A stretch of 24,267 bases of DNA, from IMG/VR virus record IMGVR_UViG_3300017989_000431, positions 1-24,267 of that record; one strand, written 5' to 3'. Under the pieces are notes generated by a model. That model did not search any database and had not been told where the DNA came from. It saw only the letters and a list, made by a program, of their open reading frames with translations. The translations under genes were made by a program, and so were the position numbers. Of the stretch, positions 1,738 to 20,565 are shown one piece after another. Origin of the DNA: a virus. Within the stretch, counting starts at the first letter, position 1, and every line of letters starts with the position of its first letter.

Positions 1738-1746
1738 AGAGTATCA
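1738..1746 (-). promoter_or_regulatory. extended -10 box (TGATACTCT) 6 nt before the tape measure start
   Basis: Read on the minus strand, TGATACTCT ends 6 nt before the ATG at 1731. It matches the TGnTAnnCT pattern found at five other starts in this window. If used, transcription would begin at or next to the start codon, giving a leaderless mRNA. The TGA of the box is also the stop codon of the chaperone extension. A GGTGAT stretch overlaps it, so conventional initiation cannot be excluded. No convincing -35 is seen. Confidence 0.4.
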
Positions 1747-2019
1747 CCCCGCCCCCGGCGACGGCGTGTTCTCGCTCTCGATCAGATCGGCGAGAGCGCG
1801 ACCGTAGAGAGCCAGATCGCGCACGGGCATTGTGAGGGCCTCGGCGAGCCCGATGTGGCCGTATCGCGTCGCAAACGCGACTCTTCGCCAGATCTCCTCG
1901 ACGCCGCCCTCGCGCCACGGCCCCTCGAACGCGAGGAGGATGCCGACGTAAATTTGGACGGCGACCTCGGGATGGCGGCGAAGGGAGCCACTTATTCGAT
2001 TTCCACCGAGGCTAGCGAG
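1744..2019 (-). CDS. tail assembly chaperone, -1 frameshift extension (G-T type)
   Basis: This is the downstream part of a two-frame gene, in the -1 frame relative to the 1992-2555 gene. Slippage on G GGA AAC at 2019-2025 joins 179 residues of the upstream frame to 91 residues encoded here, giving a product of about 270 aa. The extension is helical, with the segments 'HPEVAVQIYVGILLAFEGPW' and 'GHIGLAEALTMPVRDLALYG'. In phages the long form of the pair is made at a low rate and binds the tape measure protein during tail assembly. No credible independent start exists: the only upstream candidate in frame is a TTG near 2109 without a ribosome site. The gene lies directly before the tape measure gene, as expected. 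Confidence 0.82.
   Translation of the reverse strand, partial: LASLGGNRISGSLRRHPEVAVQIYVGILLAFEGPWREGGVEEIWRRVAFATRYGHIGLAEALTMPVRDLALYGRALADLIESENTPSPGAG
1965..2011 (-). promoter_or_regulatory. stem downstream of the frameshift site
   Basis: On the minus strand CCTCGG (2011-2006) can pair with CCGAGG (1970-1965), enclosing a 35-nt loop that holds the zero-frame TAA stop. The stem begins 7 nt after the slippery heptamer, a usual distance for a stimulatory structure. A GGTGG/CCGCC pairing inside the loop could extend it. No folding energy was computed. Confidence 0.5.
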
Positions 2020-2555
2020 TTTCCCAAAGCGTCCCCGGTGAGCCCCGCGCAGTGCTCCAGGAACGCCGCACCAATGGCGAGTCGCCCCGGCATTGAAAGC
2101 GAATCCCAAAGGTAATCCTTCTCATGCGGAGCAAGCACGCGCCCGTTGACGGCATGGACCGACGCGCGGCCGAGCACGAGGGAAAGAGCCTGCCCCGACG
2201 ATGTCGCGTCGGCGGCGGTCGGGAGCTCGTTCCCTTCGGACGGCGCCGGCCCGTACTGACCGAGCTTTCGGAGCGCTCGGAGTTCCTGGTCGGAATCCAG
2301 CTCGAGAAGCGTGATCTGAATCGGTTGGTCGTATGCTCCCGGTCGGCACATTTCGGGCCAGACCGTGACCTTGACCCCGCGCCGGCGAAGCGTGCGCGCC
2401 TCGCCCCCTTCCGACGCCGTCGACGACGTGCGCGCCACCATCGCGTCGAACGCCCCCGGGTCGAACGTTAGCCCCTTGACGAGCTTTCCGGCGCTCTGCG
2501 CCCCCGTCTCGTCGGGTTCTTCGGCGTTTCTGTTCTGCTTCTGCTTTTCCGTCAT
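1992..2555 (-). CDS. tail assembly chaperone, short form (G type)
   Basis: A 187-aa protein with a charged, Gln/Asn/Glu-rich start, then a compact domain ('GVKVTVWPEMCRPGAYD' to 'GRLAIGAAFLEHCAGLTGDAL'). It sits between the tail tube and tape measure genes, where tail assembly chaperones lie, and its last codons contain the slippery sequence that leads into the -1 frame. Ending in the zero frame gives this short form, which in the family is the abundant partner and stays off the mature tail. The ATG at 2555 follows a good ribosome site (GGGAGAAAGG, about 7 nt away). The role is inferred from position and the frameshift. Sequence similarity to a named family was not recognised. Confidence 0.8.
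   Translation of the reverse strand: MTEKQKQNRNAEEPDETGAQSAGKLVKGLTFDPGAFDAMVARTSSTASEGGEARTLRRRGVKVTVWPEMCRPGAYDQPIQITLLELDSDQELRALRKLGQYGPAPSEGNELPTAADATSSGQALSLVLGRASVHAVNGRVLAPHEKDYLWDSLSMPGRLAIGAAFLEHCAGLTGDALGNSLASVEIE
2019..2025 (-). promoter_or_regulatory. programmed -1 ribosomal frameshift site, G GGA AAC
   Basis: The minus strand reads GGGAAAC from 2025 to 2019. In the frame of the gene that starts at 2555 it is split as G GGA AAC, exactly the X XXY YYZ phase required for a tandem -1 slip. The zero frame stops 25 nt later (TAA at 1992-1994). The -1 frame runs on to 1744 and yields the expected second half of a tail assembly chaperone. A stem starts 7 nt downstream. Confidence 0.85.
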
Positions 2556-2582
2556 CTATCGGCCTTTCTCCCGCGCTGGTGT

Positions 2583-2601
2583 GCGGGGGTCAATGCCCCG
2601 C
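2583..2601 (-). promoter_or_regulatory. GC hairpin in the leader of the chaperone gene
   Basis: GCGGGG (2583-2588) and CCCCGC (2596-2601) form a perfect 6-bp stem with a 7-nt loop in the 156-bp gap between the tail tube and chaperone genes. No T tract follows on the minus strand, so it is not a clear intrinsic terminator. It may be a processing or attenuation element. The rest of the gap holds only a possible -10 box. Confidence 0.3.
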
Positions 2602-2663
2602 GCCGACGCCTCACCACCAGCGGAGACCGACACCCCGGGAGGCGCCGACACGGGACGCCGTCG

Positions 2664-2669
2664 AGGATA
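2664..2669 (-). promoter_or_regulatory. possible -10 box (TATCCT) for the chaperone/tape measure genes
   Basis: On the minus strand GGGTATCCT lies about 108 nt before the ATG at 2555. TATCCT is the same hexamer used in the candidate leaderless promoters of the portal gene and two other genes, but it lacks the upstream TG and no -35 is evident. It is listed because the gap is otherwise non-coding. Confidence 0.25.
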
Positions 2670-2711
2670 CCCTATCGCGTAAAATTGTGCGGAGACGATG
2701 GGGGGGGAGGG

Positions 2712-3152
2712 TCAGGGCGCGGCGAGGATTGTTGCGTCGTCGGCGGCGAACTCGAACCGAAATTCGACGTAGGATTTCCGATCGCTCGCGTTGATCGGAA
2801 TGTTCCCGAACTTCGCATCGGGGATCACGACCCGCCGCGTCCCGCCGAGCGGGAACCGATACGACGCCACGATCTGGATCGACTCCCCGGGGAGGCGGCC
2901 TTTCGACGCTTCGGTGATGCGTTGGATCAGGGACATGACGTCGGCCGTTCGACTGTTGATCGTGAGCGTGCCCGAAACGCCGGTGTGGATGTCGTCCTTC
3001 TGCTCGGTCGTCTGCCCAAGATACCCTTCCGAGAGGATCTCCCGGTCGAACTGGAATTCGATCGACCCCACGTTCTGAAACGACGTTTCAAGCCCGTTCG
3101 TGGCCGAAAAGACGTTGACGTCGACCTCTTGCCCTTTGAGCCTGTCAGGCAT
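2712..3152 (-). CDS. tail tube protein
   Basis: A 146-aa, beta-rich protein directly downstream of the sheath gene (21-nt gap), where tail tube genes lie in contractile-tail phages. It begins 'MPDRLKGQEVDVNVFSATNG' and continues with alternating hydrophobic strands and segments such as 'SGTLTINSRTADVMSLIQRI' that fit the tube-protein fold. Such proteins stack as hexameric rings to form the inner tube through which DNA passes. The ATG at 3152 follows GAGAGGT at 7 nt. Length is typical for the class. The assignment rests on position, size and strand pattern. Confidence 0.75.
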   Translation of the reverse strand: MPDRLKGQEVDVNVFSATNGLETSFQNVGSIEFQFDREILSEGYLGQTTEQKDDIHTGVSGTLTINSRTADVMSLIQRITEASKGRLPGESIQIVASYRFPLGGTRRVVIPDAKFGNIPINASDRKSYVEFRFEFAADDATILAAP

Positions 3153-3173
3153 TGCCTACCTCTCTTTTCTGAC

Positions 3174-5381
3174 CTATTCGGCCTCGGTAATCGTGACGCC
3201 CTCGCCGATCTCGGTATCGAAGACGATCGTATCCATGCTGGAGAGCAACCGGACGGCGGACGCCCAAACGAAGACCCCGCGCGCCTCGTACCCGTCATAT
3301 TCGTTGGTGACTTCGCCGAACGAGTAATCGGCGATCCGCTGCGCGTCGGGAGCGTTGCGCGACAGGAGCCCCTCGAGAAACTCGGTCCCCGCGGCGTCCA
3401 TGCCGGAGCGCCGGGCGTCGGTCGCGAGCTTCTTCGTGAACGGGATCGCGAGCTTCGCGAACGAGTCTTGGATGTAATCGGCCATGCGCCGGCGCTTGAT
3501 CGTCTTTCGTCCTTCGATCGACGACGTCGTGACCTCGCTCTGATAAACGAAGTTGCCGTCATCGTCGACCCGAGGAGCGCAGATCCCAGCGGTCTTGAGC
3601 GCCGTGTAAAGCGTGCGCCCCATGGTCTCCCCGGTCGCCTCGATGTCGGCGAGATACAGATCGGGGCGGCCCGTGACCTGCCCGACGTTCTCCTCCGGCG
3701 GCAAGGCGCACATGAGATCCGCGAGCGGCCCGTCACCACCGATCGAGATGATGCCCGACGCGTTGAACCCCGTCCCGCCGGCGGCGCCGAGTGTGGCGAT
3801 CTCGGCAACGTACATGGTCCATCCTGGCCAGGTGTAAACGACCCGATCGCGGCGGTAGCTGGCGACGTCTGCGATCGCTTGCGCGGAGCTGTAGCCGATG
3901 GGAGCGCGGGAAACGAAAACGCGCCCCTGGCACCCCTCGGCGCTCGCGTCGAGCGCGCTCTGTCGCCCGGAAACGATAACCTGAGCGGAGCGCCGCGCCG
4001 AGATCATGACCGTCGTGGCCCTCGAGACCTTCGTCGGGTCCTCGGTCGCGGTGAACGCGGCAGCATAGGCGGCGTCAATCTGCGCTTCGGTGAGCGCGGC
4101 CGACAGGTTCGACGGGTTTGTGACCTCGACCATTCGAGACGAGGGAAGGTCGGCAAGCGTTGTTACGGTCCCGGCAAGCGCCGTGAGGGCCGTTCCGTCG
4201 TCGGTCGCCGGCCGCACCTCGACGTCTTGCGTCCCGTCGTTGGGCGCGGCGACCGTGCCCTCGGGCCAGGAGATCGACCGCATTGTGACCCATTCGTCAC
4301 CGCCGGCATTTCGAACACGCGTTCCGGCGGCGAGGTCGAACGCGGCGCCGACGTTCGCGGTAACGACCGTCCCGGTCGTAAACCCCATGTCGGTTGCCAT
4401 CGTGCCGACAGTGTCGTCGATCTTGATCGTGCCCGTCGCGGAGCCCGTGCGATAGACGACGACCTCTTGTGTTGCGGCGTCGACGGCTGCGATCCCGTTG
4501 ACGCCGGCGACCGCAACGGAGTTGATCAGGTTCGCTGCTTCGGCAGCCGTAACGGCGTTGACGTTGGCGACGTTGCCCGCGCCGGCCGACGCGCCGGCGA
4601 CGTGACCGATCGCGGCAAGCGTGGTGCCGCCGCCCGGGTCGGTGACGTCGCGGAGCACGACGGACGCTCCCGAGCCAGCCTGGATCGACGAAATGTCGAT
4701 CTCGCCAGCGTTGACCACGGCGAGGGTTGACCCGAGAAAGGCATTGATCCGCGAGACGACGTTGGCGGCCGTCTGGTCGCCGACCTGGAATGAGACGACG
4801 ACCTCGGGCAGGGCATCGATCGTGATCCCGATCTGCTCGCCTCCGGTGTACCCCGTGGGCCCGGGGGCGAACCCCGCGCCGGCGGCCGTGGCCACCGTCG
4901 CAGTGATCGCCGTCGAGGCCCCGGCTCCGGTGTCGGTGGTGACGGTTGCCTGATCGGCCGCGGTGAGGTCGAAGGGCGCGGCGGCCGATCTGACCGCGGC
5001 GGCGAGCGTGAACCGGACGTCGCCGACGCTCGTGTCGACACGACAAATGATCTTGCGCTGGGGTCGGAGATTCAGCCCCTTGATCCATCCGTTCCCGTTC
5101 CAATCCTCCGCTAAGTGTCGACGACCGCACGGGTTTTGATACTTGCTATCTCCGTATTGGTATCCGAACCCGCCGAACTTCGACCGCTCGTCGTTCGCGC
5201 CGAGAACCTCGGTTGGCGTATTGAACGCGCCGTCCTCGAACTCACCGACGAGGAGCAGAGTCCCGAACCCAACGCCCGTTACAGGGACCTGCGGAGTCCG
5301 GTCAATGATCGTGATTTGCTCAATCGCGGTGAGTTGCTCCAACGTGGGCAGATCGCGAAACCGCCGAATAAAAGCGCTCAT
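3174..5381 (-). CDS. contractile tail sheath protein with inserted beta-rich modules
   Basis: A 735-aa protein. The N-terminal part ('MSAFIRRFRDLPTLEQLTAI', then a 'GTLLLVGEF' strand) and the C-terminal half resemble tail sheath proteins. The C-terminal half includes a 'SRATTVMISARRSAQVIVSG' stretch, 'DVASYRRDRVVYTWPGW', and a terminal domain of about 140 residues with 'RRRMADYIQDSFAKLAIPF'. The sheath wraps the tube and contracts to drive it through the envelope. It is larger than many sheaths (roughly 400-660 aa). The extra length includes Ala/Gly/Thr-rich material at about residues 130-345. Within it residues 180-260 resemble part of the 243-aa virion protein encoded at 11540-12271, and residues 277-336 look like a second, shorter copy. 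The ATG at 5381 follows AGGGAGG at 9 nt. It lies between the terminator candidate and the tail tube. Confidence 0.88.
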   Translation of the reverse strand: MSAFIRRFRDLPTLEQLTAIEQITIIDRTPQVPVTGVGFGTLLLVGEFEDGAFNTPTEVLGANDERSKFGGFGYQYGDSKYQNPCGRRHLAEDWNGNGWIKGLNLRPQRKIICRVDTSVGDVRFTLAAAVRSAAAPFDLTAADQATVTTDTGAGASTAITATVATAAGAGFAPGPTGYTGGEQIGITIDALPEVVVSFQVGDQTAANVVSRINAFLGSTLAVVNAGEIDISSIQAGSGASVVLRDVTDPGGGTTLAAIGHVAGASAGAGNVANVNAVTAAEAANLINSVAVAGVNGIAAVDAATQEVVVYRTGSATGTIKIDDTVGTMATDMGFTTGTVVTANVGAAFDLAAGTRVRNAGGDEWVTMRSISWPEGTVAAPNDGTQDVEVRPATDDGTALTALAGTVTTLADLPSSRMVEVTNPSNLSAALTEAQIDAAYAAAFTATEDPTKVSRATTVMISARRSAQVIVSGRQSALDASAEGCQGRVFVSRAPIGYSSAQAIADVASYRRDRVVYTWPGWTMYVAEIATLGAAGGTGFNASGIISIGGDGPLADLMCALPPEENVGQVTGRPDLYLADIEATGETMGRTLYTALKTAGICAPRVDDDGNFVYQSEVTTSSIEGRKTIKRRRMADYIQDSFAKLAIPFTKKLATDARRSGMDAAGTEFLEGLLSRNAPDAQRIADYSFGEVTNEYDGYEARGVFVWASAVRLLSSMDTIVFDTEIGEGVTITEAE

Positions 5382-5395
5382 ACCTCAAATCCTCC

Positions 5396-6103: not shown

Positions 6104-6106
6104 GGG

Positions 6107-6748
6107 TTACAGCTCCGTTCCCCGCGAGTTCCCGCGGCCGGGCTCACGAAGACCGACCTCGCGCAACTCGGCCCTGATCTCTCGGTCGATGACGCCCTCG
6201 CGTTCGAGCCGGTCGACGGCCCGCGCCATGAAGTGTCGAGGTGCGAGGCCGTTTTTTTCGATGCCACGGACGACGCCGGCGACGATCATGGCGTCGCGTG
6301 CGACAGGATCTTCGGCCTCGGGCGGTTCCTCGTTCTCGCCTGGTTGAGGCCGCGGCTCGACGGCGGCCTCGCCCTTCGCTTTGAGCATTGCATAGGCGAC
6401 TTTCGTTACTTGGACGGGATCGGAGTCGATGATCCCTTTCTGATAAGCCCAGTCGGCAAGCGGCGCCACGGGCGGCCGATGGGGGCGCGTACCGTATTCC
6501 ATAAAGGGCGCGTGCGGAGCGTCGACCGAAACGATCGCGCCGTTCGGGGTGAAATTCGTACCCGTCGATCGCGCCATCTCTCCGGTGTTGTGCGGCGGTT
6601 CCGGCTTCGTGTCCATGATCGCCTCGACGACGTATCCTTCGAGCACCATCGCGGCCGATTGAAGTCCGCGAACGGCGGCCTCTTGGTAGTCCCGCGACAT
6701 GGTGCGGAGCCGGTCGGCAAGCTCGCCGGGGGTGACTCTCTTGGCCAT
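6107..6748 (-). CDS. HK97 gp10-like neck/tail protein
   Basis: A 213-aa protein. Residues about 30-110 match the HK97 gp10 pattern: an N-terminal helix, 'PPHNTGEMARST', then 'VDAPHAPFMEYGTRPHRPP', which is the family's 'Y/HA.f.E.GTr....P' signature. The family acts at the head-tail or tail-terminator position. A Pro/Glu-rich linker (about 130-150) precedes a C-terminal segment 'APRHFMARAVDRLEREG', again usual for gp10-type proteins, although the insert makes this one longer than most. No ribosome site precedes the ATG. Instead TGGTAGCCT stands 6 nt upstream, in a 9-nt gap to the previous gene. Confidence 0.75.
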   Translation of the reverse strand: MAKRVTPGELADRLRTMSRDYQEAAVRGLQSAAMVLEGYVVEAIMDTKPEPPHNTGEMARSTGTNFTPNGAIVSVDAPHAPFMEYGTRPHRPPVAPLADWAYQKGIIDSDPVQVTKVAYAMLKAKGEAAVEPRPQPGENEEPPEAEDPVARDAMIVAGVVRGIEKNGLAPRHFMARAVDRLEREGVIDREIRAELREVGLREPGRGNSRGTEL

Positions 6749-6754
6749 GGGGTA

Positions 6755-6763
6755 AGGCTACCA
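6755..6763 (-). promoter_or_regulatory. extended -10 box (TGGTAGCCT) 6 nt before the gp10-like start
   Basis: The minus strand carries TGGTAGCCT followed by 6 nt and the ATG at 6748, with no Shine-Dalgarno. It overlaps the last codons of the upstream gene. It fits the TGnTAnnCT leaderless pattern seen at several genes here. It is the weakest match in the hexamer (TAGCCT). Confidence 0.45.
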
Positions 6764-7321
6764 GACGCGGCGACGAGGTGCCCGGCGCGAGCCGTCGCGC
6801 TCCCGGTTGCCGTCTTGTTTGCGGATCGTGACCGACCAGTCGAAACGGTCGGGACGTCGCACGGGCGGCGATGCGATCGTGAACCGGCGGCGTTCCGGTT
6901 CGCGGCCGTCGCGGCGGTCCATTCGAACTTCGACGAAGCACTCCTCGCCGTCGGCACGGCCGAAATAGCTCTCGATCTCGTCTTCGGTGTACCGCGGCGA
7001 GATGCCCTCGAGCCGAACGTCCCCGCGCTCGACGTGCCCGCCCTCTCGGGATTGCCAGGCGAGGGCCTCGAGCGACCGGACACGAGGAGTCGGGAGGAGC
7101 GCGAGATCCACGGCCGTCGCCGGCGTCCCGCGGCCGACCTCGCCACCGGACCACCGGACCCGCACGACATGAACCGTGTACGGCCGAAGACCGAATTCAA
7201 CGAGCATTTGCCGCAGATCGTCGACGACCCCGCCGAGATCTTCGACGAGGGAACGGCCGGAACCATCGCGCAGACGATGATCTCTCGTCGCCGGGAGCGG
7301 GCCGCGGGGGTTGTCGCTCAC
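6758..7321 (-). CDS. putative head-tail connector / stopper protein
   Basis: A 187-aa protein between the 133-aa connector candidate and the gp10-like gene, the location of head-closure (stopper) or neck proteins. The start chosen is GTG at 7321, which overlaps the upstream TGA as GTGA, so translation is probably coupled. An in-frame ATG at 7414 would overlap the upstream gene by nearly 100 nt. The protein has a helical, acidic start ('SLVEDLGGVVDDLRQMLVEF'), beta-type central segments and an Arg-rich C-terminus ('RERDGSRRAPRRRVW'). No family was recognised, so the role is inferred from position only. Confidence 0.6.
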   Translation of the reverse strand: MSDNPRGPLPATRDHRLRDGSGRSLVEDLGGVVDDLRQMLVEFGLRPYTVHVVRVRWSGGEVGRGTPATAVDLALLPTPRVRSLEALAWQSREGGHVERGDVRLEGISPRYTEDEIESYFGRADGEECFVEVRMDRRDGREPERRRFTIASPPVRRPDRFDWSVTIRKQDGNRERDGSRRAPRRRVW

Positions 7322-7719
7322 GAGATCACCGTGGCGTTGCGACCGCCGGCGAGGGCCCCGCGAGCGAAGGGATTGATCGGGGCTCCGAGGTCGTTGGCGA
7401 GCTTCGCTTGCCATTCGGCAAACTCTCGCCGGAGTTGGCGAATTTCGTTCTGGTTTGGCGTCAACTCGCCAAGCCGGAGCGCCTTGAAGCGAGAGCGGGC
7501 CTCCGACATCTGATCTTCGATGCAGTTCAACTCGCGAACGTCGCGCCGCACAAGCTCGAGCCCCTCGGCGTCGATTCGGGCGAAAGCGTCACGAACGAGG
7601 AATTCGGGTTGCGACGCGGCCGGATATCCGAGCTGGAACGACGACGCGAGCGACGACCAGTTCGCATAGCCGAGATGCCGGATGATCTGCGCCTGTTCGC
7701 GTTCTGTGAGTGCCGCCAT
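7318..7719 (-). CDS. putative head-tail adaptor (connector) protein
   Basis: A 133-aa, largely helical protein beginning 'MAALTEREQAQIIRHLGY', an opening seen in phage proteins that follow the capsid gene. The middle 'RRDVRELNCIEDQMSEARSR' and 'NEIRQLRREFAEWQAKLAND' look like coiled-coil helices. Adaptors bind the portal ring and begin the neck. Its position after the capsid and before the stopper candidate supports this. There is no ribosome site: TGCTATCCT lies 6 nt before the ATG. It overlaps the next gene by GTGA. The adaptor role is inferred. Confidence 0.65.
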   Translation of the reverse strand: MAALTEREQAQIIRHLGYANWSSLASSFQLGYPAASQPEFLVRDAFARIDAEGLELVRRDVRELNCIEDQMSEARSRFKALRLGELTPNQNEIRQLRREFAEWQAKLANDLGAPINPFARGALAGGRNATVIS

Positions 7720-7725
7720 AGGGGC

Positions 7726-7734
7726 AGGATAGCA
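7726..7734 (-). promoter_or_regulatory. extended -10 box (TGCTATCCT) 6 nt before the adaptor start
   Basis: The minus strand reads TGCTATCCT, then GCCCCT, then ATG at 7719. The same nine bases occur before the gene at 12271. No Shine-Dalgarno is present. A TAGACG sequence 19 nt upstream of the hexamer could be a poor -35. It lies in the 34-nt gap between two genes. Confidence 0.6.
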
Positions 7735-7753
7735 TGAGGCGGCGGCGACGCGT

Positions 7754-7998: not shown

Positions 7999-8454
7999 TC
8001 ACCTTTCGATCATCGGCGCGAGCACTCCTCCGGCGGAACGGATCGCGTCGAGGTCGTACTGACCAGCGTCGACGATTCGCCCGGCGAGGAGCCGCACGGC
8101 TCCGCGGGGCGTCGCGATCTTGATATCGCTCATGAGGCGGAATCTTGGATGCACGATCGGGGGCGCGTCGACGTCGCCAGCGATCGGATCTGTCGGGCTC
8201 GGTGTGACGGCGGCCTCGACGGCGGCGGCCTCCTCTTCGGCCGAAGGCTCGTCGTCGGGGGCGGCCTCGAGCGGGGGCAACGTCCCGAAGTCCTCGGGGG
8301 CGGTCTCAACAGCGGCGACGCGTTCTTCGGCCTCGGCGATGGCCGCGACGAGGTCGTCTTTTCGCATCGTGCCGGGAGTGATTCCGAAATAACGGGCTCG
8401 CGCACGGAGATCGGCGACGCTCATGGCTTTCGGGTTGGATTTGGTATCGCTCAT
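7999..8454 (-). CDS. SAP/Rho-N-like domain protein of the head cluster
   Basis: A 151-aa acidic protein. Residues about 10-43 ('MSVADLRARARYFGITPGTM', then 'RKDDLVAAIAEAEE') form a helix-turn-helix unit of the SAP or Rho N-terminal type, often nucleic-acid binding and often present next to phage capsid genes. A Glu/Ala-rich linker follows, then a C-terminal domain with 'ATPRGAVRLLAGRIVDAGQY'. It could help genome entry or head completion, but that is inference. The start codon lacks a ribosome site and is preceded by TGCTATTCT at 7 nt. Confidence 0.7.
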   Translation of the reverse strand: MSDTKSNPKAMSVADLRARARYFGITPGTMRKDDLVAAIAEAEERVAAVETAPEDFGTLPPLEAAPDDEPSAEEEAAAVEAAVTPSPTDPIAGDVDAPPIVHPRFRLMSDIKIATPRGAVRLLAGRIVDAGQYDLDAIRSAGGVLAPMIER

Positions 8455-8461: not shown

Positions 8462-8470
8462 AGAATAGCA
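8462..8470 (-). promoter_or_regulatory. extended -10 box (TGCTATTCT) 7 nt before the SAP-protein start
   Basis: The minus strand reads TGCTATTCT, seven bases, then ATG at 8454. It lies in the 48-nt gap after the capsid gene. A TCGACT sequence stands 19 nt upstream of the hexamer, the same spacing as the TAGACG at the adaptor gene. There is no Shine-Dalgarno. Confidence 0.6.
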
Positions 8471-8502: not shown

Positions 8503-9882
8503 CTACCCGATGGCGTGCTCGATCACGATAGCGCGACCGTAGCGGCGGCCAGTCGTGACCTCATCGGACGGGATCGCGAAGTCACCGGACCACGACCACG
8601 CCTGCCCAACGATCTGCTGGAGACGGTCGAGGGGGGCGCGCATGGTGTATCGGATGCGTTCGGTCATGACCTGGACGCCGTTGTTGACGACGGAGAAGTT
8701 CCCGATCCGACCCGTGACGCCGGCCTCGGTGATGTAGTCGGCCTCGGGGATGTAGCACTCATATAGGCTCGCCATGCCGGTGATGATCGTTCGGCCGATC
8801 CGAATGCCGTTGTTGTTGATCATCTCGGCGCCGACGTCGGGCGAGCACTCGGCCGCCGCGGCACCCGAGGAGACGAGCGTCCCGGAGTTGAGCGAGTCGG
8901 GGCACTCGGTGTTGCGATAGTGGTTGCACCCGACGGCGCGGCCGACGGAAAACTCGCGATAGGCGGCCGAATCGGGCAAAGATTCGTGGAGACGTTGCCA
9001 GTGATTGTCGCCGAAGAGCTGCGCTTCCGCCTGCGTTCCGAGGTGATGATGGAAGTACCCGTCGTCATGGTTCGGGACATTGTCGCCGCGGAGGAACGCA
9101 ACGGCGTTGATCACGTCGTCGAGCGTCAACACGTCGGCGGCGTTGATCGCGTCGACCGTGGCGCCGCCACCGACGCGATAGATACGCGGGGCGTTCGAGG
9201 CGACAACGGCTTCGCGAGCTGCGACACCGACGGTCAGGACCGCCGAGAGGGTCAGCGTTCCGGGCCCGAAGGGTGCCGACGGGTCGTCGGGGGTCGCGGC
9301 GATGACGTTGCGGTTCGGCTCGGTTCCGCCGAATGTGATCGTCAGCGGAGCGGCGGCCGAAACGGGGGTCACAACGCCGTTGACGAGCGACTCGGTGAAC
9401 CCGTTGAGGGACGCGACGCGAACCTGATTCGCGCCGATGGCGGCGACGGCGACGGCCGCGGAGTTGCCGGAGCAATAGGCCCGGAACAGGCGGTTCCGCG
9501 AGATCTGGTTGAGCGTCTGGCCAGCGTTCAAGCCGAGTTGCTTCGTGTCCCGGAGGAGTTTCGACGCGAGCGCGGCGCGACTCGAGGGCATGTGAGTGTC
9601 GATCGCGTTGCCGTACTGGGCAGCCTGCGCGCTCCACTGCTCGACGGCATAGGTTGACGGGGTCGGGTCGGTTCCGGGAATCAACGCGGTGATCGCGACG
9701 GGGATCAAGCCCGTGCGCGTCATCAACTTGACTTCGCCGACGTTGGCGTCCCAGCGTTCCGGCGTCGCATCCATGCGGAACATGAGCCGGGGGAACATGG
9801 CGTCGCGGAAAACGCGCTCGAGCGTGTTGTCTTGAAGAACGGCCGCGATTGCGGGGTCGAATCCTGCGAGCGAAACGGGCAT
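8503..9882 (-). CDS. major capsid protein (HK97-fold type)
   Basis: A 459-aa protein directly after a scaffold-like gene. The N-terminal helix region ('LQDNTLERVFRDAMFPRLMF'), the central 'TLDDVINAVAFLRGDNVPNH' helix with 'GYFHHHLGTQAEAQLF', and the C-terminal 'GIRIGRTIITGMASLYECYI' and 'VQVMTERIRYTMRAPLDRL' segments follow the order of HK97-fold capsid proteins, including the late beta strands used to bind neighbours. It forms the icosahedral shell around the scaffold. The start follows the strongest ribosome site in the window (AGGAGGAAAG), fitting high expression. Several Cys residues in the C-terminal half could form cross-links. The 148-bp upstream gap carries a possible promoter. Confidence 0.85.
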   Translation of the reverse strand: MPVSLAGFDPAIAAVLQDNTLERVFRDAMFPRLMFRMDATPERWDANVGEVKLMTRTGLIPVAITALIPGTDPTPSTYAVEQWSAQAAQYGNAIDTHMPSSRAALASKLLRDTKQLGLNAGQTLNQISRNRLFRAYCSGNSAAVAVAAIGANQVRVASLNGFTESLVNGVVTPVSAAAPLTITFGGTEPNRNVIAATPDDPSAPFGPGTLTLSAVLTVGVAAREAVVASNAPRIYRVGGGATVDAINAADVLTLDDVINAVAFLRGDNVPNHDDGYFHHHLGTQAEAQLFGDNHWQRLHESLPDSAAYREFSVGRAVGCNHYRNTECPDSLNSGTLVSSGAAAAECSPDVGAEMINNNGIRIGRTIITGMASLYECYIPEADYITEAGVTGRIGNFSVVNNGVQVMTERIRYTMRAPLDRLQQIVGQAWSWSGDFAIPSDEVTTGRRYGRAIVIEHAIG

Positions 9883-9987: not shown

Positions 9988-10017
9988 AAAGTACCGCAGA
10001 TCGGGAGGGGCGTGCAA
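9988..10017 (-). promoter_or_regulatory. possible sigma70-type promoter for the capsid gene
   Basis: On the minus strand TTGCAC (10017-10012) and TACTTT (9993-9988) are separated by 18 nt, about 100 nt before the capsid start. TTGCAC is the same -35-like hexamer as in the plus-strand recombination promoter. The -10 matches TAnnnT but is otherwise poor. The rest of this 148-bp non-coding gap shows only the strong ribosome site. Confidence 0.35.
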
Positions 10018-11509: not shown

Positions 11510-11518
11510 AATCTAACA
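11510..11518 (-). promoter_or_regulatory. extended -10 box (TGTTAGATT) upstream of the repeat virion gene
   Basis: On the minus strand TGTTAGATT fits TGnTAnnnT and lies about 30 nt before the ATG at 11478, leaving a short leader with a ribosome site (AAAGGGA). It is in the 61-bp gap after the preceding gene. No clear -35 was found. Confidence 0.4.
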
Positions 11519-11539: not shown

Positions 11540-12271
11540 TCACGACCGACCGGCGGCGATGATCTCGACCGTGGCGTTTCCGCTGATTTGGGCGGCCGTC
11601 GGCTTGCGGCTCGACGTGCCGGAGAACTCCGCGAGGAACAGGCCCGAGATCGTCACGTCCTGTCCCTTGGCGGGGGTGATTGTTGGCGAGGAGCCGGCAT
11701 CGAGGCCGAGTTGAGCGGCGCCCGTGCCGGCGAACGACAGGAGCCCTTCCGCGCCGGCGACGGCCGTGGCAACGCCGGTGATGTGGATCTGGCCTGCGAC
11801 GACGTCGGCCCGCGGCGTGGCGATGCCAGCGAGCGCCATAGCGGCATTGATCCGGGCGGCGCATTGCGCGGCGCTCTGATCGGCGGCGTCAAAAGTCGTG
11901 GTGACGGCGACACCGTCGATCGTCGTGATCAGTGTCTCCCCGCCACCAAATCCCGTTGGGAACGCGCCGGCGACGGCTTGCGCGTCGGCGGGGACGGCGT
12001 CGAGCCGAAGCACAACGTCATTGTCCGACCGAAGGAACAGGAATTCGATTTCGGAGAGGTCGTCGACGCCGTCGAGGTCGTCGAACGCGTCGCCCGGGTC
12101 GCCCGTGGTCGAGACTTGCTGCGACGTGCAAGCGACCGCGTCAGCGTATCGTTGAGACGACGAGCACCCCGAGGCGCCAAGCGCCAGATCCTTCGTACAT
12201 GCGCCGTTGCCGCCGAGATTACGATCGGTCTGTACGGTCAACGTCCCGTCGGTTTGGATGAGCTTCGCCAT
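11540..12271 (-). CDS. virion protein carrying a sheath-like beta module
   Basis: A 243-aa protein. Residues 1-60 are Cys-containing and Gly/Ser/Thr-rich. Residues 71-92 ('DLSEIEFLFLRSDNDVVLRL') look like beta strands. Residues 109-193 form a unit with 'GGETLITTIDG', 'DQSAAQCAARINAAM' and 'AAQLGL', which resembles residues 180-260 of the tail sheath encoded here and the general G-x-x-I-x-I-D-G...A-x-x-I-N pattern of flagellin/hook-type modules. It is probably a structural protein of the head or tail surface, but the family is not recognised. It has no ribosome site: TGCTATCCT stands 7 nt before the ATG. It is the first late gene after the recombination pair. Confidence 0.6.
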   Translation of the reverse strand: MAKLIQTDGTLTVQTDRNLGGNGACTKDLALGASGCSSSQRYADAVACTSQQVSTTGDPGDAFDDLDGVDDLSEIEFLFLRSDNDVVLRLDAVPADAQAVAGAFPTGFGGGETLITTIDGVAVTTTFDAADQSAAQCAARINAAMALAGIATPRADVVAGQIHITGVATAVAGAEGLLSFAGTGAAQLGLDAGSSPTITPAKGQDVTISGLFLAEFSGTSSRKPTAAQISGNATVEIIAAGRS

Positions 12272-12278: not shown

Positions 12279-12287
12279 AGGATAGCA
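12279..12287 (-). promoter_or_regulatory. extended -10 box (TGCTATCCT) 7 nt before the 243-aa virion gene
   Basis: The minus strand reads TGCTATCCT, seven bases, then ATG at 12271. A TTGATC that could act as -35 lies 15 nt upstream of the hexamer, overlapping the end of the annealing-protein gene. No Shine-Dalgarno is present. This box would restart transcription of late genes at the boundary with the recombination module. Confidence 0.6.
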
Positions 12288-13351: not shown

Positions 13352-14204
13352 GAAAAATCACCTTTCCAACGACGTAGGGACACGTCGAGTAATAGCCGCA
13401 CCAACGCGCCGAACACCACCATGCGCCATCGGGGGCGGGCGGGAACACGCCGGCCGAGATCCCGACGGCGACGGCGTTGATCGTTTTCAAGAGCGCTGCG
13501 ACGTGGTCGTCGGTGCGCTGCGACTCGACAAGTACGGCCTTGGGCCCTCGCTTTTGACTGAGTACCTGGCGAATCCCGACGCCGTGGGGAAGCGTGCCCG
13601 TTCGGTGGCGCCATCCCATGGCGTACCAGGAGAGTTGACGGTCGCCGTCGACGTCGGCTTGGCTCCTGGTCTTCGTCCCCGTCTTGAGGTCTTCGACGAT
13701 AACGGCCGAATCGCCCTCCGGGTAAGCGACGAGGTCTTCGCGCTCATGCGCCACATCGAGATAACCGAGAAGTGAAATCCCGAGCCGTTCGACGGGGATC
13801 TCGATCTGCTCTTCAACGGCGATGGGGTAGCGGATCTGCGGCGCGACCTTGTCCGCGAAGCACCCCGCGAGCGTCGCGGTTCGGTCGCGCGCCTCGCCGA
13901 TGACAATATCGGTGCCTCGGTCGGCCTCGGCGCCCAAATCGACCTCCCCGGCCTCGTCGACGTCTCCGTCATATACAGCGACGGCGAGGTCGACGACGTC
14001 GGCCCTCGGCATCTCCTCGCCCGTGTCCATGACCCGACGATGGCGGCCTTCGGCTCCACCGTGGACCCCGCGACCGACGAGCATAGCGACCCCAGGCGGG
14101 CGGCGGTCCCCCTCGACATAGCGGCGGCGGTACTGCTCGCCACACTTCGCGTACATCCCAACCTGAGATGGTGAGAGATGGTCTGTTGGCAGCACGATCG
14201 GCAT
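13344..14204 (-). CDS. RecB/Cas4-type PD-(D/E)XK nuclease with probable Fe-S cluster
   Basis: A 286-aa protein. It opens with 'LSPSQVGMYAKCGEQYRRRY' (the usual start of RecB-like phage nucleases), then G45-R-G-V-H48, D150 in 'LLGYLDV', D172-x-K174 in 'VEDLKTG' and Q190 in 'QLSWYAMG', which are the active-site set of the family. Cys21 with Cys264, Cys269 and Cys275 match the four-Cys arrangement that binds an iron-sulfur cluster in Cas4 and AddB. It probably resects DNA ends for recombination with the overlapping annealing-protein gene. The ATG at 14204 has AAAGGA at a good distance and follows the divergent promoter. An in-frame extension to 14573 is open but would run across that promoter and the opposite gene. 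Confidence 0.85.
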   Translation of the reverse strand: MPIVLPTDHLSPSQVGMYAKCGEQYRRRYVEGDRRPPGVAMLVGRGVHGGAEGRHRRVMDTGEEMPRADVVDLAVAVYDGDVDEAGEVDLGAEADRGTDIVIGEARDRTATLAGCFADKVAPQIRYPIAVEEQIEIPVERLGISLLGYLDVAHEREDLVAYPEGDSAVIVEDLKTGTKTRSQADVDGDRQLSWYAMGWRHRTGTLPHGVGIRQVLSQKRGPKAVLVESQRTDDHVAALLKTINAVAVGISAGVFPPAPDGAWWCSARWCGYYSTCPYVVGKVIFHE

Positions 14205-14250: not shown

Positions 14251-14278
14251 ATTATCCGTTGCACCGAGTTCCGGTCAA
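14251..14278 (-). promoter_or_regulatory. sigma70-type promoter for the nuclease/annealing operon
   Basis: The minus strand carries TTGACC (14278-14273), a 16-nt spacer and GATAAT (14256-14251), each hexamer matching the bacterial consensus at five of six positions. The leader that follows includes a short GC hairpin (14219-14234) and a Shine-Dalgarno before the ATG at 14204. Confidence 0.7.
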
Positions 14279-14315: not shown

Positions 14316-14334
14316 GGGAAGGAAAGGCCAGACC

Positions 14335-15747
14335 GTGAACGTCATCGAATTGAGGATTTCCAACATCGGCGGCGTCGAGGCTTTCGAGCTTCGACCGGAC
14401 GGATCGCACGTCGTGATCGGAGGAAAAAACGGCGCGGGGAAATCAACCGTTCTCCGAGCCATCGCCGGGGCCCTCGGCGGGGCTCGAGAGCGCGGAGCGA
14501 TGCCACTGCGCGAGGGCGCGACAGACGGCGAGGTGGTGCTTGATCTCGGCGATCTCGTCGTCCGGTGGCGCACGAACGATCGGGGGAATGACTCATTGGT
14601 TGTCGAGAATCACGAGGGCGCCCGGTACAAGTCGCCGCAAGCGATGCTTTCGCGCCTCTTCGGCGCCCGCACGTTCGACCCGCTCGCGTTCGTTTCGATG
14701 TCGCCGAAGGCTCAGGCGTCGACGCTAGCCGACCTCGTCGGCGTCGACCTCGAGCACCTCGACGCCGAACGGGGCGCCGCCTTCGCGCAGCGACGCGACG
14801 CAAAACGCGACGCGAAAGAACTCGAGGCGCAAGCGGCCGGGTTCGACGTCCCCGACGGAACCCCCGACGAACCCATCAACATCGCCGACCTTGTCGCGCG
14901 CCTCCAAGACGCAGAGCGACGGAACACCGATCTCGAGCGCGGGCGGCGCGACCTCGAACTCGCCTCCGTCGAATTCGAGCGATTCGTCGCCGCCCGAGAC
15001 AACATCGAACGATCATGGTCTAGTCGGTGCGAAGACGCCCGGGACGAAGACCGCGCCGACGAGCGGCGCATCCTCGCCCAAATCGAGGAGTTGCAGGAAC
15101 GGTTGACACTTGCGCGCACGCTGCCTCGCTACCGCCGCGCCGAACAAGCCCGAGATCGCGATCTCGATGCCGCCGATGCTCGCACGAACGCCGCCCTTGC
15201 GGAGCGCGAGCGGCTCGCAGAGGCACTCGAGGGCCGTCGCGAAATTGATCTTGCTCCGTTCGAACAGACTCTCGCGGAGGCCGAAGACACGAACCGCGCC
15301 GTGGAGGCCCGACGAGCCCGCGAGCGCGTCGAGGCCCGCGCCGCCGAGAAACGCGCGAAGACCGACGCGTTGAGCGCGAGGATCGCTGAAATCGACGAAC
15401 AGACGCGCGCCGCCATTGCGGCGGCCGATCTCCCCGTCGAGGGCCTCTCGCTTGAAGATGGGGTCGTGACGTGGCAGGGGCGCCCGTTGTCGGTCCTGTC
15501 GTCGTCGGAACAGCTCCGCGTTTCGGTTGCACTCGGGATCGCGGCGCACCCCGAGATCGCCGTGATGTTGATCGACCGCTGGGGAGACCTCGACGACGAC
15601 CGCCGCGCCATGGTGCGCGAGATGGCGACCGCCGCCGGGGTACAGGTTTGGTCAACGGTCGTCGGGGAACGGGACGAAGACATCACAGTGACGATCCGAG
15701 AGGGGCGAATCGCCGCTGGCGTCGACGCCGGCGCCGATCGGGTATGA
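14335..15747 (+). CDS. RecF/SMC-like ATPase (Rad50-type without zinc hook)
   Basis: A 470-aa protein. It begins with the SMC/RecF-type N-terminus 'MNVIELRISNIGGVEAFELR'. Walker A is G30-KNGAGKST. A coiled-coil region rich in Arg/Glu/Ala spans about 130-360 with no CxxC hook. Near the C-terminus are an ABC signature-like 'LSSSEQLRVSVAL' and a Walker B 'AVMLIDRWGDLDDD'. The catalytic Glu expected after the Walker B Asp is replaced by Arg. Such proteins act at DNA ends or replication forks in recombination; no SbcD-type nuclease partner is in the window, but the RecB-type nuclease is divergently expressed next door. The start is GTG at 14335, with GGAAGGAAAGG upstream. Confidence 0.8.
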   Translation: MNVIELRISNIGGVEAFELRPDGSHVVIGGKNGAGKSTVLRAIAGALGGARERGAMPLREGATDGEVVLDLGDLVVRWRTNDRGNDSLVVENHEGARYKSPQAMLSRLFGARTFDPLAFVSMSPKAQASTLADLVGVDLEHLDAERGAAFAQRRDAKRDAKELEAQAAGFDVPDGTPDEPINIADLVARLQDAERRNTDLERGRRDLELASVEFERFVAARDNIERSWSSRCEDARDEDRADERRILAQIEELQERLTLARTLPRYRRAEQARDRDLDAADARTNAALAERERLAEALEGRREIDLAPFEQTLAEAEDTNRAVEARRARERVEARAAEKRAKTDALSARIAEIDEQTRAAIAAADLPVEGLSLEDGVVTWQGRPLSVLSSSEQLRVSVALGIAAHPEIAVMLIDRWGDLDDDRRAMVREMATAAGVQVWSTVVGERDEDITVTIREGRIAAGVDAGADRV

Positions 15748-15766
15748 CAGGGGCCGGAGGTTCGAC

Positions 15767-16372
15767 ATGAACAAACACGAACGACAGGACATGATCGAAG
15801 ACGCGCGCGAATGGTCTCCGCTCCTCGTCGCCGTCGGAGTGCTCGCCGCTTGCGCTGTGCTCCTCGCCGAATGCACCGAGTCTTTCGCCCACAATGGCCG
15901 TGAGCGCGTCGAAGACGTCGCCGATGGAGTCAGGGCGCTTCAGCCTGCCGCGAGCCATGAGCGCGCCGTGAGGCTTGCCAGGCTTTTCGTTGAATCGGGG
16001 GCAACCCATGGGCACGCCCCGCGGCTTCTCGTCGCACTGGCCATGCGCGAATCTTCGCTCTCGCCGCTTGTCGAAAGCCGACAGGTTCGAGGCGCCCTCG
16101 GGGAAATCGGGCTCCTTCAATCGCACGGGGTCGCGCTCCGATACCGCCCCGACGGGTGCTCGTCTGACCTCGAATCGGCGTGGTGCCAGGTCGAGACGGG
16201 GGCGAGGTTTTTGGCCGTCGTGCGGCGAACGTGCGGCGGTTCGTGGTGGCGATGGGTCGCGAGCTACGGCGCGAGCCGTTGCCTTACCGAGGCGGAAGCG
16301 CGCCGGGACGTGGCGACGAGGCGAGCGCGCCGATACTACGTGGCGATCGGCGGGGAAGGATGGGAGCCGTGA
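15767..16372 (+). CDS. membrane-anchored lytic transglycosylase (SLT type), probable endolysin
   Basis: A 201-aa protein. An N-terminal hydrophobic segment at about residues 17-35 follows a charged start and is rich in Ala, Val and Leu. The SLT fold is marked by the catalytic Glu95 in 'LAMRESSLSP', 'GEIGLLQ' at 112-118, 'VASYGAS' at 164-170 and a C-terminal 'RRYYVAI'. It cleaves the glycan strands of peptidoglycan. The single N-terminal segment could be a membrane anchor or a signal-arrest-release signal. The Cys36 context (LAEC) is a poor lipobox. No holin gene is adjacent. GGAGG lies 7 nt upstream. It overlaps the next gene by GTGA, placing lysis inside the recombination/modification operon. 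Confidence 0.8.
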   Translation: MNKHERQDMIEDAREWSPLLVAVGVLAACAVLLAECTESFAHNGRERVEDVADGVRALQPAASHERAVRLARLFVESGATHGHAPRLLVALAMRESSLSPLVESRQVRGALGEIGLLQSHGVALRYRPDGCSSDLESAWCQVETGARFLAVVRRTCGGSWWRWVASYGASRCLTEAEARRDVATRRARRYYVAIGGEGWEP

Positions 16373-16623
16373 ACGTGAATTCGAAAGCACGACCGCAAAC
16401 CGGGATCGGTTCAACGCGGGCACGGATCATTCGAACGCTACGTGAGGCTGGGCCGTGGGGAACGACGTGCGCGGTTGTTGCGAAAGCCGTGAGACGTACC
16501 CCGCAAGCCGTCTTGCGAATCCTGCGAAGCATGGAAGCGACGGGGCAGGTTCGAATCGTGGGCGAACCCCTACGGAAACGAGGGCGGGGGCGTCCCGCAA
16601 CACGTTGGGCGGTGACGCGATGA
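16369..16623 (+). CDS. winged helix-turn-helix regulator
   Basis: An 84-aa basic protein. Helices at about 17-28 ('STRARIIRTLREAGPWG') and 32-57 ('TCAVVAKAVRRTPQAVLRIL', 'RSMEATGQV') form the helix-turn-helix, with 'RIVGEPLRKRGRGRPATRWA' as a wing hairpin. The layout resembles small MarR/ArsR-type or replication-regulator domains. The GTG at 16369 is preferred: it overlaps the previous stop as GTGA and has GGAAGGA 9 nt upstream. An ATG at 16360 would sit on that ribosome site. It may bind the symmetric operator at 14241-14296, but this is a guess from operon membership. It overlaps the next gene by ATGA. Confidence 0.72.
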   Translation: MNVNSKARPQTGIGSTRARIIRTLREAGPWGTTCAVVAKAVRRTPQAVLRILRSMEATGQVRIVGEPLRKRGRGRPATRWAVTR

Positions 16624-17027
16624 CACCGCAGACCCTCCCGAAATACTCGGAGCCCCTCCGCGAAATCGTGAATGTTTTGCCGCGTAATTGGAAAAAGAAA
16701 GGGCGTGGCTCGCGGGTCGTTCTGGAATGCGGACACGAGATCGAAATTTCATCGAGTCGGCTACCTCGCAGAACTCGGTGTTATCTCTGCGGTCGGGAGG
16801 CCCTCGCCGCCGCCCGTGCCGCCTTGACTTGCGAGCACGGCGTGTTCCCAAAGGAGCGCTGTATCGAATGCCAGTGCGCCCGCCTCCGCGCCGAACTCTA
16901 CGACCTCGCCGAGCGGGCGACGGAGTTGGAAGCGTGGTGCGAACGACTCGGCAAGGATATGAAACCACTATACTTTGTGTTCGGGCTCCCCTGGGAATAC
17001 CCCTGGACCGACGAGGCCGAGCAATGA
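16620..17027 (+). CDS. double zinc-ribbon-like protein, function unknown
   Basis: A 135-aa protein with two copies of the same metal-ligand layout: C37-x-H39...C54-x2-C57 and C71-x-H73...C81-x2-C84 (with C86 adjacent). A short coiled coil (about 87-110) and a Trp/Pro-rich C-terminus ('LPWEYPWTDEAEQ') follow. It probably binds zinc and, through the basic N-terminal half ('PRNWKKKGRGSR'), nucleic acid. It is coupled by ATGA to both the regulator before it and the methyltransferase after it. No family was recognised. The start at 16620 is supported by this coupling; an open frame extends upstream but would overlap the regulator. Confidence 0.68.
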   Translation: MTPQTLPKYSEPLREIVNVLPRNWKKKGRGSRVVLECGHEIEISSSRLPRRTRCYLCGREALAAARAALTCEHGVFPKERCIECQCARLRAELYDLAERATELEAWCERLGKDMKPLYFVFGLPWEYPWTDEAEQ

Positions 17028-17848
17028 CCGCCCGCGTGGAAACCGGGCCGAGCTGGGAGATGCGCGAAGGACGCTGGCAAGACGTGCTCGCCGACGTCGA
17101 GGCCGACGCGTTGATTTCAGATCCGCCGTATTCGCCGAGACAATCCGACGGGTTCCGATCGGGAAAAGACTACGTTAGGAAAAACGGGGCGCGAAGTGCC
17201 GGCGCATTGGGCCACAGCGGAACGATTACCGCGTTTCAAGGTATGCCCTATGCCCCGATGTCGCAAGATTTCGCCGACGAAATGGCCGAGCGTTTTCGAG
17301 ACGTGGCGTGGACGGTCGTTTTCAGCGATCACATATCGTTTCGGTGGTGGGAATCGGCATTCGACGGCGTCGGGCGGTACGTATTCGCTCCTGTCGTCTG
17401 GCTCCGCGGAAACGCGCCGCGGTTTCAAGGTGACGGCCCGTGTTCCGCGGCGGAATACATATGCGTTTCCCGTCCTCGCCGCAAAACATCGTGCGGGAGC
17501 TTGCCGGGGTTTTATGCTGTCACTCCGTTGAAGGGCGAAGCGATGTCACAACGCATCGTCACGGGGCAAAAGCCCGTCCCCCTTATGCGCGCCCTCATCC
17601 GGGACTACACCCGTCCCGGCGACCTCGTCGTCGACCCTTGCGCGGGTTCCGGTACTACCCTTCTCGCCGCCGCCATCGAGGGCCGCCGAGCCATCGGCGC
17701 CGAGATGGACCCGCACACCTTCGACCTCGCCGTCGCCCGCCTCCGCAAGGGTTACACGCCGTCAATGTTTTCTGGACTCGAAAAGCGGTCGACCGAGCAA
17801 TCCGACCTCTTCGATCACGACGAGGCCGCGATCTCGTCTTCTGACTGA
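17024..17848 (+). CDS. DNA adenine-N6 or cytosine-N4 methyltransferase (beta-class order)
   Basis: A 274-aa protein. The catalytic motif IV D33-P-P-Y comes first, then a variable region (about 40-180) that should hold the target-recognition part. Motif X ('GQKPVPLMRALI') and the AdoMet-binding motif I ('VVDPCAGSGTT', about 203-213, then 'GAEMD') follow. This order (IV first, I last) is that of beta-class amino-methyltransferases. It methylates DNA, likely to protect the phage from restriction, as no restriction endonuclease gene is adjacent. The start at 17024 overlaps the upstream stop as ATGA. The 3' end overlaps the convergent MuF gene by 34 bp. Confidence 0.88.
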   Translation: MTARVETGPSWEMREGRWQDVLADVEADALISDPPYSPRQSDGFRSGKDYVRKNGARSAGALGHSGTITAFQGMPYAPMSQDFADEMAERFRDVAWTVVFSDHISFRWWESAFDGVGRYVFAPVVWLRGNAPRFQGDGPCSAAEYICVSRPRRKTSCGSLPGFYAVTPLKGEAMSQRIVTGQKPVPLMRALIRDYTRPGDLVVDPCAGSGTTLLAAAIEGRRAIGAEMDPHTFDLAVARLRKGYTPSMFSGLEKRSTEQSDLFDHDEAAISSSD

Positions 17849-18885: not shown

Positions 18886-18894
18886 TGCGCCCGC

Positions 18895-20550
18895 CTATTT
18901 GTCGTCGGCGTCGGAGTTGTCGTCGGGGGTCGGTGGCAGGTTCGCCGAGAGGTCGACGACCGGGGCCCCCACATCAAGCGCGCGTCGCGTTCGGATCATG
19001 CCGGATTCGGCGTCCTCCTCGATCATCTCGAGTTCGCGGTCGACGTCGACCACGTCGAACAGCGTCGCCAGCGATTCCACGGCCGTTCGCTGAGAGAGCA
19101 CGGGACGCCCGCCGGTCGCGCCCTTCGCCGTCTCCGTCGCCTCTTTCCGATCCTGCCAGGTCGCCGGGAAATATGGCGGCCACCGGAGCGAAACGGTTTC
19201 GGCGGCGCCCGGAGTCCGTTCGACGTAGTCGACCCCGCCGTCTTTGCGCGGCTCCGCGCGCATGGCGAGCGTGACGACGCCCCACGACCCTTCGCCCTCG
19301 CCCGACGGTTCCGCGGCGCCACGGGGCAATCTGCGAGCCGCGGAGAGCATGTTTTGCAGCACGTTCACGATCGCGGCGCCGTATTGTTCCCGCAATGTGT
19401 CGCATTTTGCGAGCATCGACGCGTAACGCATTCGCATTGACGCCGCCGACACCGTGCCGCCCGAAATCTTCTCGGGATCAAGGAGCACGACGTCGGCCTT
19501 ATCGAGTTCGGTCTGTCGCATGACGTGGAGCAGTTCAAGCGCCGACGTCAACGCGGAGCCGCGTAACTCGAGGTAACTTGCGCCGTTCCGAGCATAGATC
19601 GCGAACGAGGAACCGCGCCTTACGACCCCGTCGTTTTCGCGGGGGTCGTCGTGAATCACCAGCGTTGGGTCGACATTTGCGACCGTCCCGCGTTGCGTCG
19701 CGCTCAATAGCACGTCGAGCGCGTCGAACCCTTCTTCCTGCCCCTCGTAATCGGAGACGCCGTCGGCACTCGACGAGTCAGGGATGTTTTGAATCCAGTA
19801 CACGGGGCACGATCCGAGGTCGTGCCTTACGACCTTCGCCGGGAGCATCGACCACGACCGTTGATTTGCCGCGTCTTCGGGGACGGCTGACCAGACGGCG
19901 TCGATTCGATCATCCCAGTATCGGACATAGAAAAATCGTTTCTGCCGGGGCTTGCCCTCGACGTCCCAAACCCGGCGCATGTAGGGATAGACTTTCAGCA
20001 CCTTCCCGGGGCGCCGCGCTTCGTAGTCTTGCCATTCGAGCACCTCGACGAACGCCGAGCGATGCACCTCGACCACGGGGCGCCCCGCCACGAACCCCCA
20101 TGAGAGCACCGACGTCCCTGTCGAGCCCCCGATGTCGCGCGCCTCGATCAATCGGATCGCGAGCTTCGATTCGACCGCGAGTTGTCGCGCGAAATCCTCC
20201 GCGTCGGCGTCGCCCTCGACGCGGATCAACGGGAATTTGTCATGGCCAAAAAGCATCGCCGTTAGGCGTTTCGTGATCACCTTTCCGAGATCCATTCGGG
20301 ACGTCGGCCGGCGCCGTTTCATCGGTACGTAATCGGAACTGGGCACGTCGACGGCGTCGGAAAATCGAATCAGATACCCGTCGAAATCGAATTGCTTGTG
20401 GTCGTGCTGAGTGCAACGAAGATAGCTCTCTCGCCGGAGCAAATCGCGTTGCCGATCGGAGTCGATGAGGTCGACGAGTCGAGCGCGTCGAAGAGGCACG
20501 GCCGAAGAGAGCGCGTCGGCCTCGGCTTGTTTCGGGAGAATTGCCGCCAT
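18895..20550 (-). CDS. portal protein
   Basis: A 551-aa protein downstream of the terminase gene and before a MuF gene, the standard place for the portal. It shows a helical start, a wing region ('TGTSVLSWGFVAGRPVVEVH' with 'FYVRYWDDRIDAVW'), a central helical region ('YEGQEEGFDALDVLLSATQR'), and the helix 'SAASMRMRYASMLAKCDTLR' with 'QYGAAIVNVLQNMLSAARRL' as in the stem/crown of portals. The C-terminus is acidic and disordered. Twelve copies form the DNA channel and the dock for terminase. No ribosome site precedes the ATG: TGGTATCCT lies 6 nt upstream. Confidence 0.82.
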   Translation of the reverse strand: MAAILPKQAEADALSSAVPLRRARLVDLIDSDRQRDLLRRESYLRCTQHDHKQFDFDGYLIRFSDAVDVPSSDYVPMKRRRPTSRMDLGKVITKRLTAMLFGHDKFPLIRVEGDADAEDFARQLAVESKLAIRLIEARDIGGSTGTSVLSWGFVAGRPVVEVHRSAFVEVLEWQDYEARRPGKVLKVYPYMRRVWDVEGKPRQKRFFYVRYWDDRIDAVWSAVPEDAANQRSWSMLPAKVVRHDLGSCPVYWIQNIPDSSSADGVSDYEGQEEGFDALDVLLSATQRGTVANVDPTLVIHDDPRENDGVVRRGSSFAIYARNGASYLELRGSALTSALELLHVMRQTELDKADVVLLDPEKISGGTVSAASMRMRYASMLAKCDTLREQYGAAIVNVLQNMLSAARRLPRGAAEPSGEGEGSWGVVTLAMRAEPRKDGGVDYVERTPGAAETVSLRWPPYFPATWQDRKEATETAKGATGGRPVLSQRTAVESLATLFDVVDVDRELEMIEEDAESGMIRTRRALDVGAPVVDLSANLPPTPDDNSDADDK

Positions 20551-20556
20551 GGCGGC

Positions 20557-20565
20557 AGGATACCA
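20557..20565 (-). promoter_or_regulatory. extended -10 box (TGGTATCCT) 6 nt before the portal start
   Basis: The minus strand reads TGGTATCCT, then GCCGCC, then ATG at 20550. The upstream gene stops at 20584, so the box lies in the 33-nt gap. No Shine-Dalgarno is present. This would give a leaderless portal/MuF transcript independent of terminase. Confidence 0.6.

Follow-up and report, generated by a model that had tools for sequence, protein, structure and literature searches.

Virion genes of an uncultured myovirus-like phage are preceded, at a nearly constant distance from the start codon, by boxes that very probably serve as extended -10 promoters giving leaderless mRNAs. The window, by which we mean the whole stretch of DNA analysed, is a 24,267-bp IMG/VR fragment with the virion module of this phage, mostly on the minus strand. 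Judged from sequence alone, virion genes in such uncultured phages of GC-rich hosts would run from many small promoters, with two modes of translation start mixed and the choice between them conserved per gene across relatives that are about 40–70% identical.

Boxes upstream of virion genes in the window

PHROG matches identify terminase, portal, head morphogenesis, scaffold, capsid and neck genes in the window; adaptor, sheath, tube, tail chaperone and tape measure were assigned by position and from relatives. Two near-identical contigs from the same metagenome, G001 and G002, extend the window on both sides. A search with the sheath protein returned 48 viral contigs and one bacterial one, and whole contigs were compared for the nearest of them, G005 (sheath 64%), G006 (61%), G022 and G007, with G025 as a more distant relative. 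The close-relative contigs are uncultured fragments whose sheath or head proteins are about 40–70% identical. Genes were called on coding potential alone with a simple in-house caller that gave no bonus for a Shine-Dalgarno (SD) sequence or a box.

An earlier note on this DNA had claimed six of them on the minus strand, and all six are present where it placed them, each 6–7 nt from its ATG. Over both strands of the window TGNTANNCT matches six times, one per 4 kb, and all six matches are these boxes; the chance expectation for TGNTANNCT-N6/7-ATG is 0.06 in dinucleotide shuffles and 0.015 in 600 first-order Markov sequences (maximum 1). The note had proposed comparing the motif with shuffled sequence and with relatives: six boxes stand against 0.015–0.06 expected, and all but the gp10-like box are kept in relatives.

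The portal gene (18895..20550, minus; phrog_64, E 2.5e-12) has no SD and is predicted to be leaderless, its box TGGTATCCT lying at 20557..20565 (minus) with a gap of 6 to the ATG at 20550. This box is conserved in the orthologues at G005:16147 and G022:16587 and is unchanged in G001 despite three differing flanking bases. Box TGCTATCCT at 12279..12287 (minus) has a gap of 7 to the ATG at 12271 of a putatively leaderless 243-aa head-module gene (11540..12271, minus), for which PHROG and Pfam searches gave no match; it has orthologues in G005, G006 and G022, with the box conserved in all three. After the capsid gene, box TGCTATTCT at 8462..8470 (minus) stands 7 nt from the ATG at 8454 of a 151-aa SAP/Rho_N-like gene (7999..8454, minus; Pfam Rho_N at 24.7 bits, slightly below the cut-off), again probably leaderless, and is conserved in G005 and G006. 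A second copy of TGCTATCCT, at 7726..7734 (minus), has a gap of 6 to the ATG at 7719 of a 133-aa gene (7318..7719, minus) that gave no match in family searches, is a head-tail adaptor by position only and would likewise be leaderless; the box is conserved in G005, G006 and G007, and the G022 orthologue has an SD instead. The tape measure gene, assigned by position and cut by the contig end (1..1731, minus; the full-length protein in G002 has 739 aa), is also predicted to be leaderless, with box TGATACTCT at 1738..1746 (minus) and a gap of 6 to the ATG at 1731. That box is conserved in G005, G006, G007 and G025, and the gene after the tape measure is boxed in G002 and G006.

Five members of the proposed set of six hold, but the remaining box, TGGTAGCCT at 6755..6763 (minus), is doubtful. 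It lies with a gap of 6 before the ATG at 6748 of the neck/tail-completion (gp10-like) gene (6107..6748, minus; phrog_5, E 1.3e-14); its TAG is the upstream stop codon, and no matching box was found before the orthologues in G005, G006 and G022. The tape-measure box too contains a stop, its TGA also terminating the tail-chaperone ORF that is reached by frameshifting. To that extent the boxes might be coincidence or by-products of the TGA and TAG stop codons that precede a following start. The other four boxes are clear of the upstream stop codon, however, and a chance expectation of 0.015–0.06 together with the conservation of the boxes leaves this explanation a next to negligible probability; it was rejected for the whole set, while for the gp10-like gene alone it may hold.

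The tail-assembly-chaperone pair itself carries a -1 frameshift arrangement (ORFs 1744–2109 and 1992–2555, minus strand), with the frameshift site GGGAAAC at 2025–2019 in the correct phase and the second ORF in the -1 frame.

By the SD criterion used, no SD was seen before the boxed genes of the window. The companion claim, that nearly all other genes have one, is correct for most of them but not for the head-morphogenesis gene or g149. No Rfam families were found in the window, and a generic promoter scan of it gave matches at chance level only, as is expected if the boxes are -35-less promoters.

Position, composition and conservation among relatives

TANNNT occurs before the 146 ATG starts of the close clade 17 times at gap 6 and 8 times at gap 7, and 0–3 times at other gaps; with TGN added, 16 occurrences are left at gap 6 and 7 at gap 7. 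More distant groups have the same gap 6–7 peak in weaker form, and in more distant phages (L003/L004 and L009–L016; G003, G004) TANNCT is found before some genes at gap 5–7 with no TG extension. Only 1 of 25 boxed genes has an SD, against 93 of 148 unboxed genes (Fisher 1.2e-8), and ATG is the start codon of all 25 boxed genes, against 121 of the 148 (p 0.016). The logo of the 25 boxes reads GTGnTAtnCT, with strong TG and -10 positions (T of the extension in 23/25, G in 24/25), and the -35 positions carry information not above background. The fifth -10 base, an A in the standard TATAAT, is C in 22 of the 25.

TGNTANNNT reaches a density of 3.36 per kb within 60 nt upstream of starts, against 0.29 in coding and 0.23 in antisense sequence; nearly all matches fall on the strand that encodes the phage genes, and these contigs contain almost no match to the reversed pattern. 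Orthologous boxes are 78% identical, or still about 69% once the 3 of 10 positions that match by construction are left aside, compared with 39% for the spacer and 28%, the random level, for the 36-nt upstream flank. The signature GTGnTAnnCT, 6–7 nt, ATG is usable for start-codon correction in such phages.

The gap peak at 6–7, the loss of SD, the exclusive use of ATG and the conservation support the proposal of the earlier note that extended -10 promoters are placed so that transcription starts on the ATG. What the sequences show is the motif, where it sits, that the SD is missing and that orthologous genes keep the box; that the boxes act as promoters, where transcripts begin, how they are translated, which sigma factor of the host reads them and how protein amounts are affected are inferences. 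In sigma-70 promoters transcription starts 6–8 nt after the -10 hexamer. Here the T that closes the -10 element is 6–7 nt from the A of the ATG, which would place the first RNA base at the start codon or one position upstream of it; as the start is predicted on the start codon, the mRNA would be leaderless, and its 5'-terminal AUG could be used directly by 70S ribosomes. The boxed genes lack a ribosome-binding site on read-through RNA, so each would rely mainly on its own promoter. Such putatively -35-independent extended -10 promoters (GTGnTAtnCT) would be read by a sigma-70-type holoenzyme, for which our best guess is the host's own.

The same leaderless extended -10 architecture might instead be read, as a late class, by a phage-encoded or phage-modified polymerase. 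The frequent C at the fifth -10 base, which could point to a special factor, and the missing -35 would suit that reading, as would the precedent of Thermus phage P23-45, where a phage protein inhibits -10/-35 promoters and has a smaller effect on the middle/late promoters of the extended -10 type (PMC7403470). Yet searches for families of sigma regions 2 and 4 found none in the window or in G001, G002, G005, G006, G022 and G007, all of them fragments, and related motif variants precede non-structural genes too (G005:25335, G001:4046). We consider a phage polymerase unlikely, though it keeps an appreciable share of the probability.

Leadered genes and the copy number of virion parts

The motif is not confined to leaderless late genes but is also found before leadered genes and before non-late genes. 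In the window, TGATAGAGT at 22801..22809 (minus) lies 32 nt before an SD-bearing 132-aa gene and TGTTAGATT at 11510..11518 (minus) lies 31 nt before a 222-aa gene with a weak SD; both are predicted leadered promoters. Counting these two, about a dozen genes outside the boxed set have the 9-mer 18–47 nt upstream, where it would give leadered and mostly SD-led mRNAs. The G005 orthologue of the 132-aa gene has its box at gap 6 (G005:22936) and no SD. This one gene thus has a leader and SD in the window and the gap-6 arrangement without SD in G005, and a motif that slides between the two arrangements behaves as a promoter would and not as a translation signal.

These positions bear on an alternative in which the box, transcribed as part of the mRNA, would direct translation initiation without an SD and would not be a promoter, a reading that would account for the fixed distance to the ATG and for the replacement of the SD. 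It would not predict the same 9-mer far upstream of genes that usually have an SD, the motif fits an extended -10 element, and the whole box has no visible complementarity to the 3' end of 16S rRNA. A translation element is accordingly very unlikely, and we retain the interpretation as extended -10 promoters.

Nearly everywhere, an SD leads the capsid, scaffold, sheath and tube genes as well as the 222-aa gene. The major capsid gene (8503..9882, minus; phrog_1357) keeps its SD in nearly all relatives, and a candidate -35/-10 promoter, TTGCAC-N18-TACTTT, was picked out by eye before it at 9988..10017 (minus). The tail sheath gene (3174..5381, minus), also SD-led, was assigned by position, length and alignment; the PHROG search for it gave no match.

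Tentatively, and with more doubt than confidence, initiation mode may be read as a conserved stoichiometry code in which few-copy parts are leaderless and many-copy parts SD-led, promoter strength alone setting the few-copy parts. Read-through RNA would then contribute little to portal, adaptor and tape measure. Tallied over the close clade, 11 of 12 cells for these three few-copy parts are boxed and 19 of 19 cells for the many-copy parts (capsid, scaffold, sheath, tube) have an SD; counted by gene the comparison is 3 against 4 (p 0.03), the cells not being independent across genes or relatives. The split could equally reflect which genes begin a transcription unit. What stands of the earlier suggestion that the boxes tune stoichiometry is a correlation with copy class over seven genes. 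The phages would be suited to studying whether virion stoichiometry is set by leaderless messages.

A PD-(D/E)XK nuclease gene at 13344–14204 (minus) has upstream of it the promoter-like TTGACC-N16-GATAAT at 14278–14251, taken from the scan that was at chance level; this -35/-10 site possibly represents a class of early promoters distinct from the -35-less boxes. An opposite-strand block interrupts the late module at 14335–17848 (plus), with an SMC/AAA-like ATPase, an SLT transglycosylase and a DNA methyltransferase. A lytic transglycosylase-like gene at 31277–31834 of G005 (L073) resembles window 15767–16372 and has a different location in G005. At 21259–21300 of G002 (L008), TGGTAGACT is followed by 7 nt and an ATG, then by an SD and, in another reading frame, a second ATG that begins a 518-aa gene; the first ATG possibly opens a leaderless upstream ORF, and the G006 orthologue has GTA at that place.

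Known leaderless systems and clues to the host

The arrangement had been called unusual, but precedents exist in the leaderless middle/late transcripts of phiYS40 and the extended -10 promoters of P23-45. Other microbes and a small number of phages already show leaderless initiation of this kind; its gene-by-gene conservation beside ordinary genes appears, as far as we are aware, to be new.

An accepted way to recognise leaderless genes in bacteria is a TANNNT some 12 bp upstream of the start; such genes are frequent in Actinobacteria (19%), Deinococcus-Thermus (39%) and some delta-Proteobacteria (8/33 genomes, 15.8%) (PMC3160421), and in Deinococcus such -10 motifs have been proven by mutation (PMC12340547). 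The present boxes share with these genes the TANNNT about 12 bp before the ATG, the absence of SD and a -35 that is probably dispensable, and differ in belonging to phage virion genes, in having TG in nearly every box and in the C at the fifth base. In Thermus phage phiYS40 the majority of middle/late mRNAs lack a leader, and infection alters the host's IF2/IF3 levels (PMC3594737). There, as predicted here, phage middle/late genes are expressed from leaderless mRNA, but in the present phages leaderless and SD genes alternate with the assignment conserved per gene, and most middle/late genes cannot be called leaderless, as capsid, scaffold, sheath and tube keep their SD. P23-45, whose middle/late promoters are extended -10 promoters (PMC7403470), would resemble them in this -35-independent class. 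Mycobacteriophage Corndog (Cluster O) has a few predicted leaderless promoters (PMC4351075), whose predicted start coincides with the gene's first base, in one case inside the structural operon; it differs in having few such promoters only, predicted as SigA-like.

Nine known phages were scanned for TGNTANNNT-N6/7-ATG. Matches to the pattern and to its reversed control numbered 23 and 7 in phiYS40, 3 and 0 in phiKX1 and 3 and 1 in lambda; no pattern match was found in P23-45, the Streptomyces phages Kromp and phiC31, Arthrobacter phage Sonali, Gordonia phage TillyBobJoe or Myxococcus phage Mx8. As a positive control, one of the three lambda matches, on the minus strand at 37938–37955, is what we take to be the site directly before cI (PRM). 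The lambda cI mRNA is a textbook leaderless message. PRM-cI resembles the present boxes in its extended -10-like sequence 6 nt before the ATG, but it serves one repressor gene and not an array in virion genes.

A host search found no close cultured relative of the phage. Its portal and capsid matches are 26–34% identical to proteins of Komagataeibacter and Streptomyces phages, the AAA gene is about 36% identical to actinophage genes, and the sheath had no cultured-phage match. A test of a planctomycete family gave no signal, its positive control being silent as well. The only bacterial record with a sheath relative is a 'delta proteobacterium' MAG (G049, behind L065), which contains two; it is a hint and not a host assignment, and its phylum is mixed for the leaderless signature. 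Across 299 kb of this MAG (74% GC) there is a weak gap 6–7 peak, with TG unclear and no link to SD. The G049 lineage probably uses leaderless genes widely, the MAG having 105 TGNTANNNT-N6/7-ATG sites against 7 for the reversed pattern.
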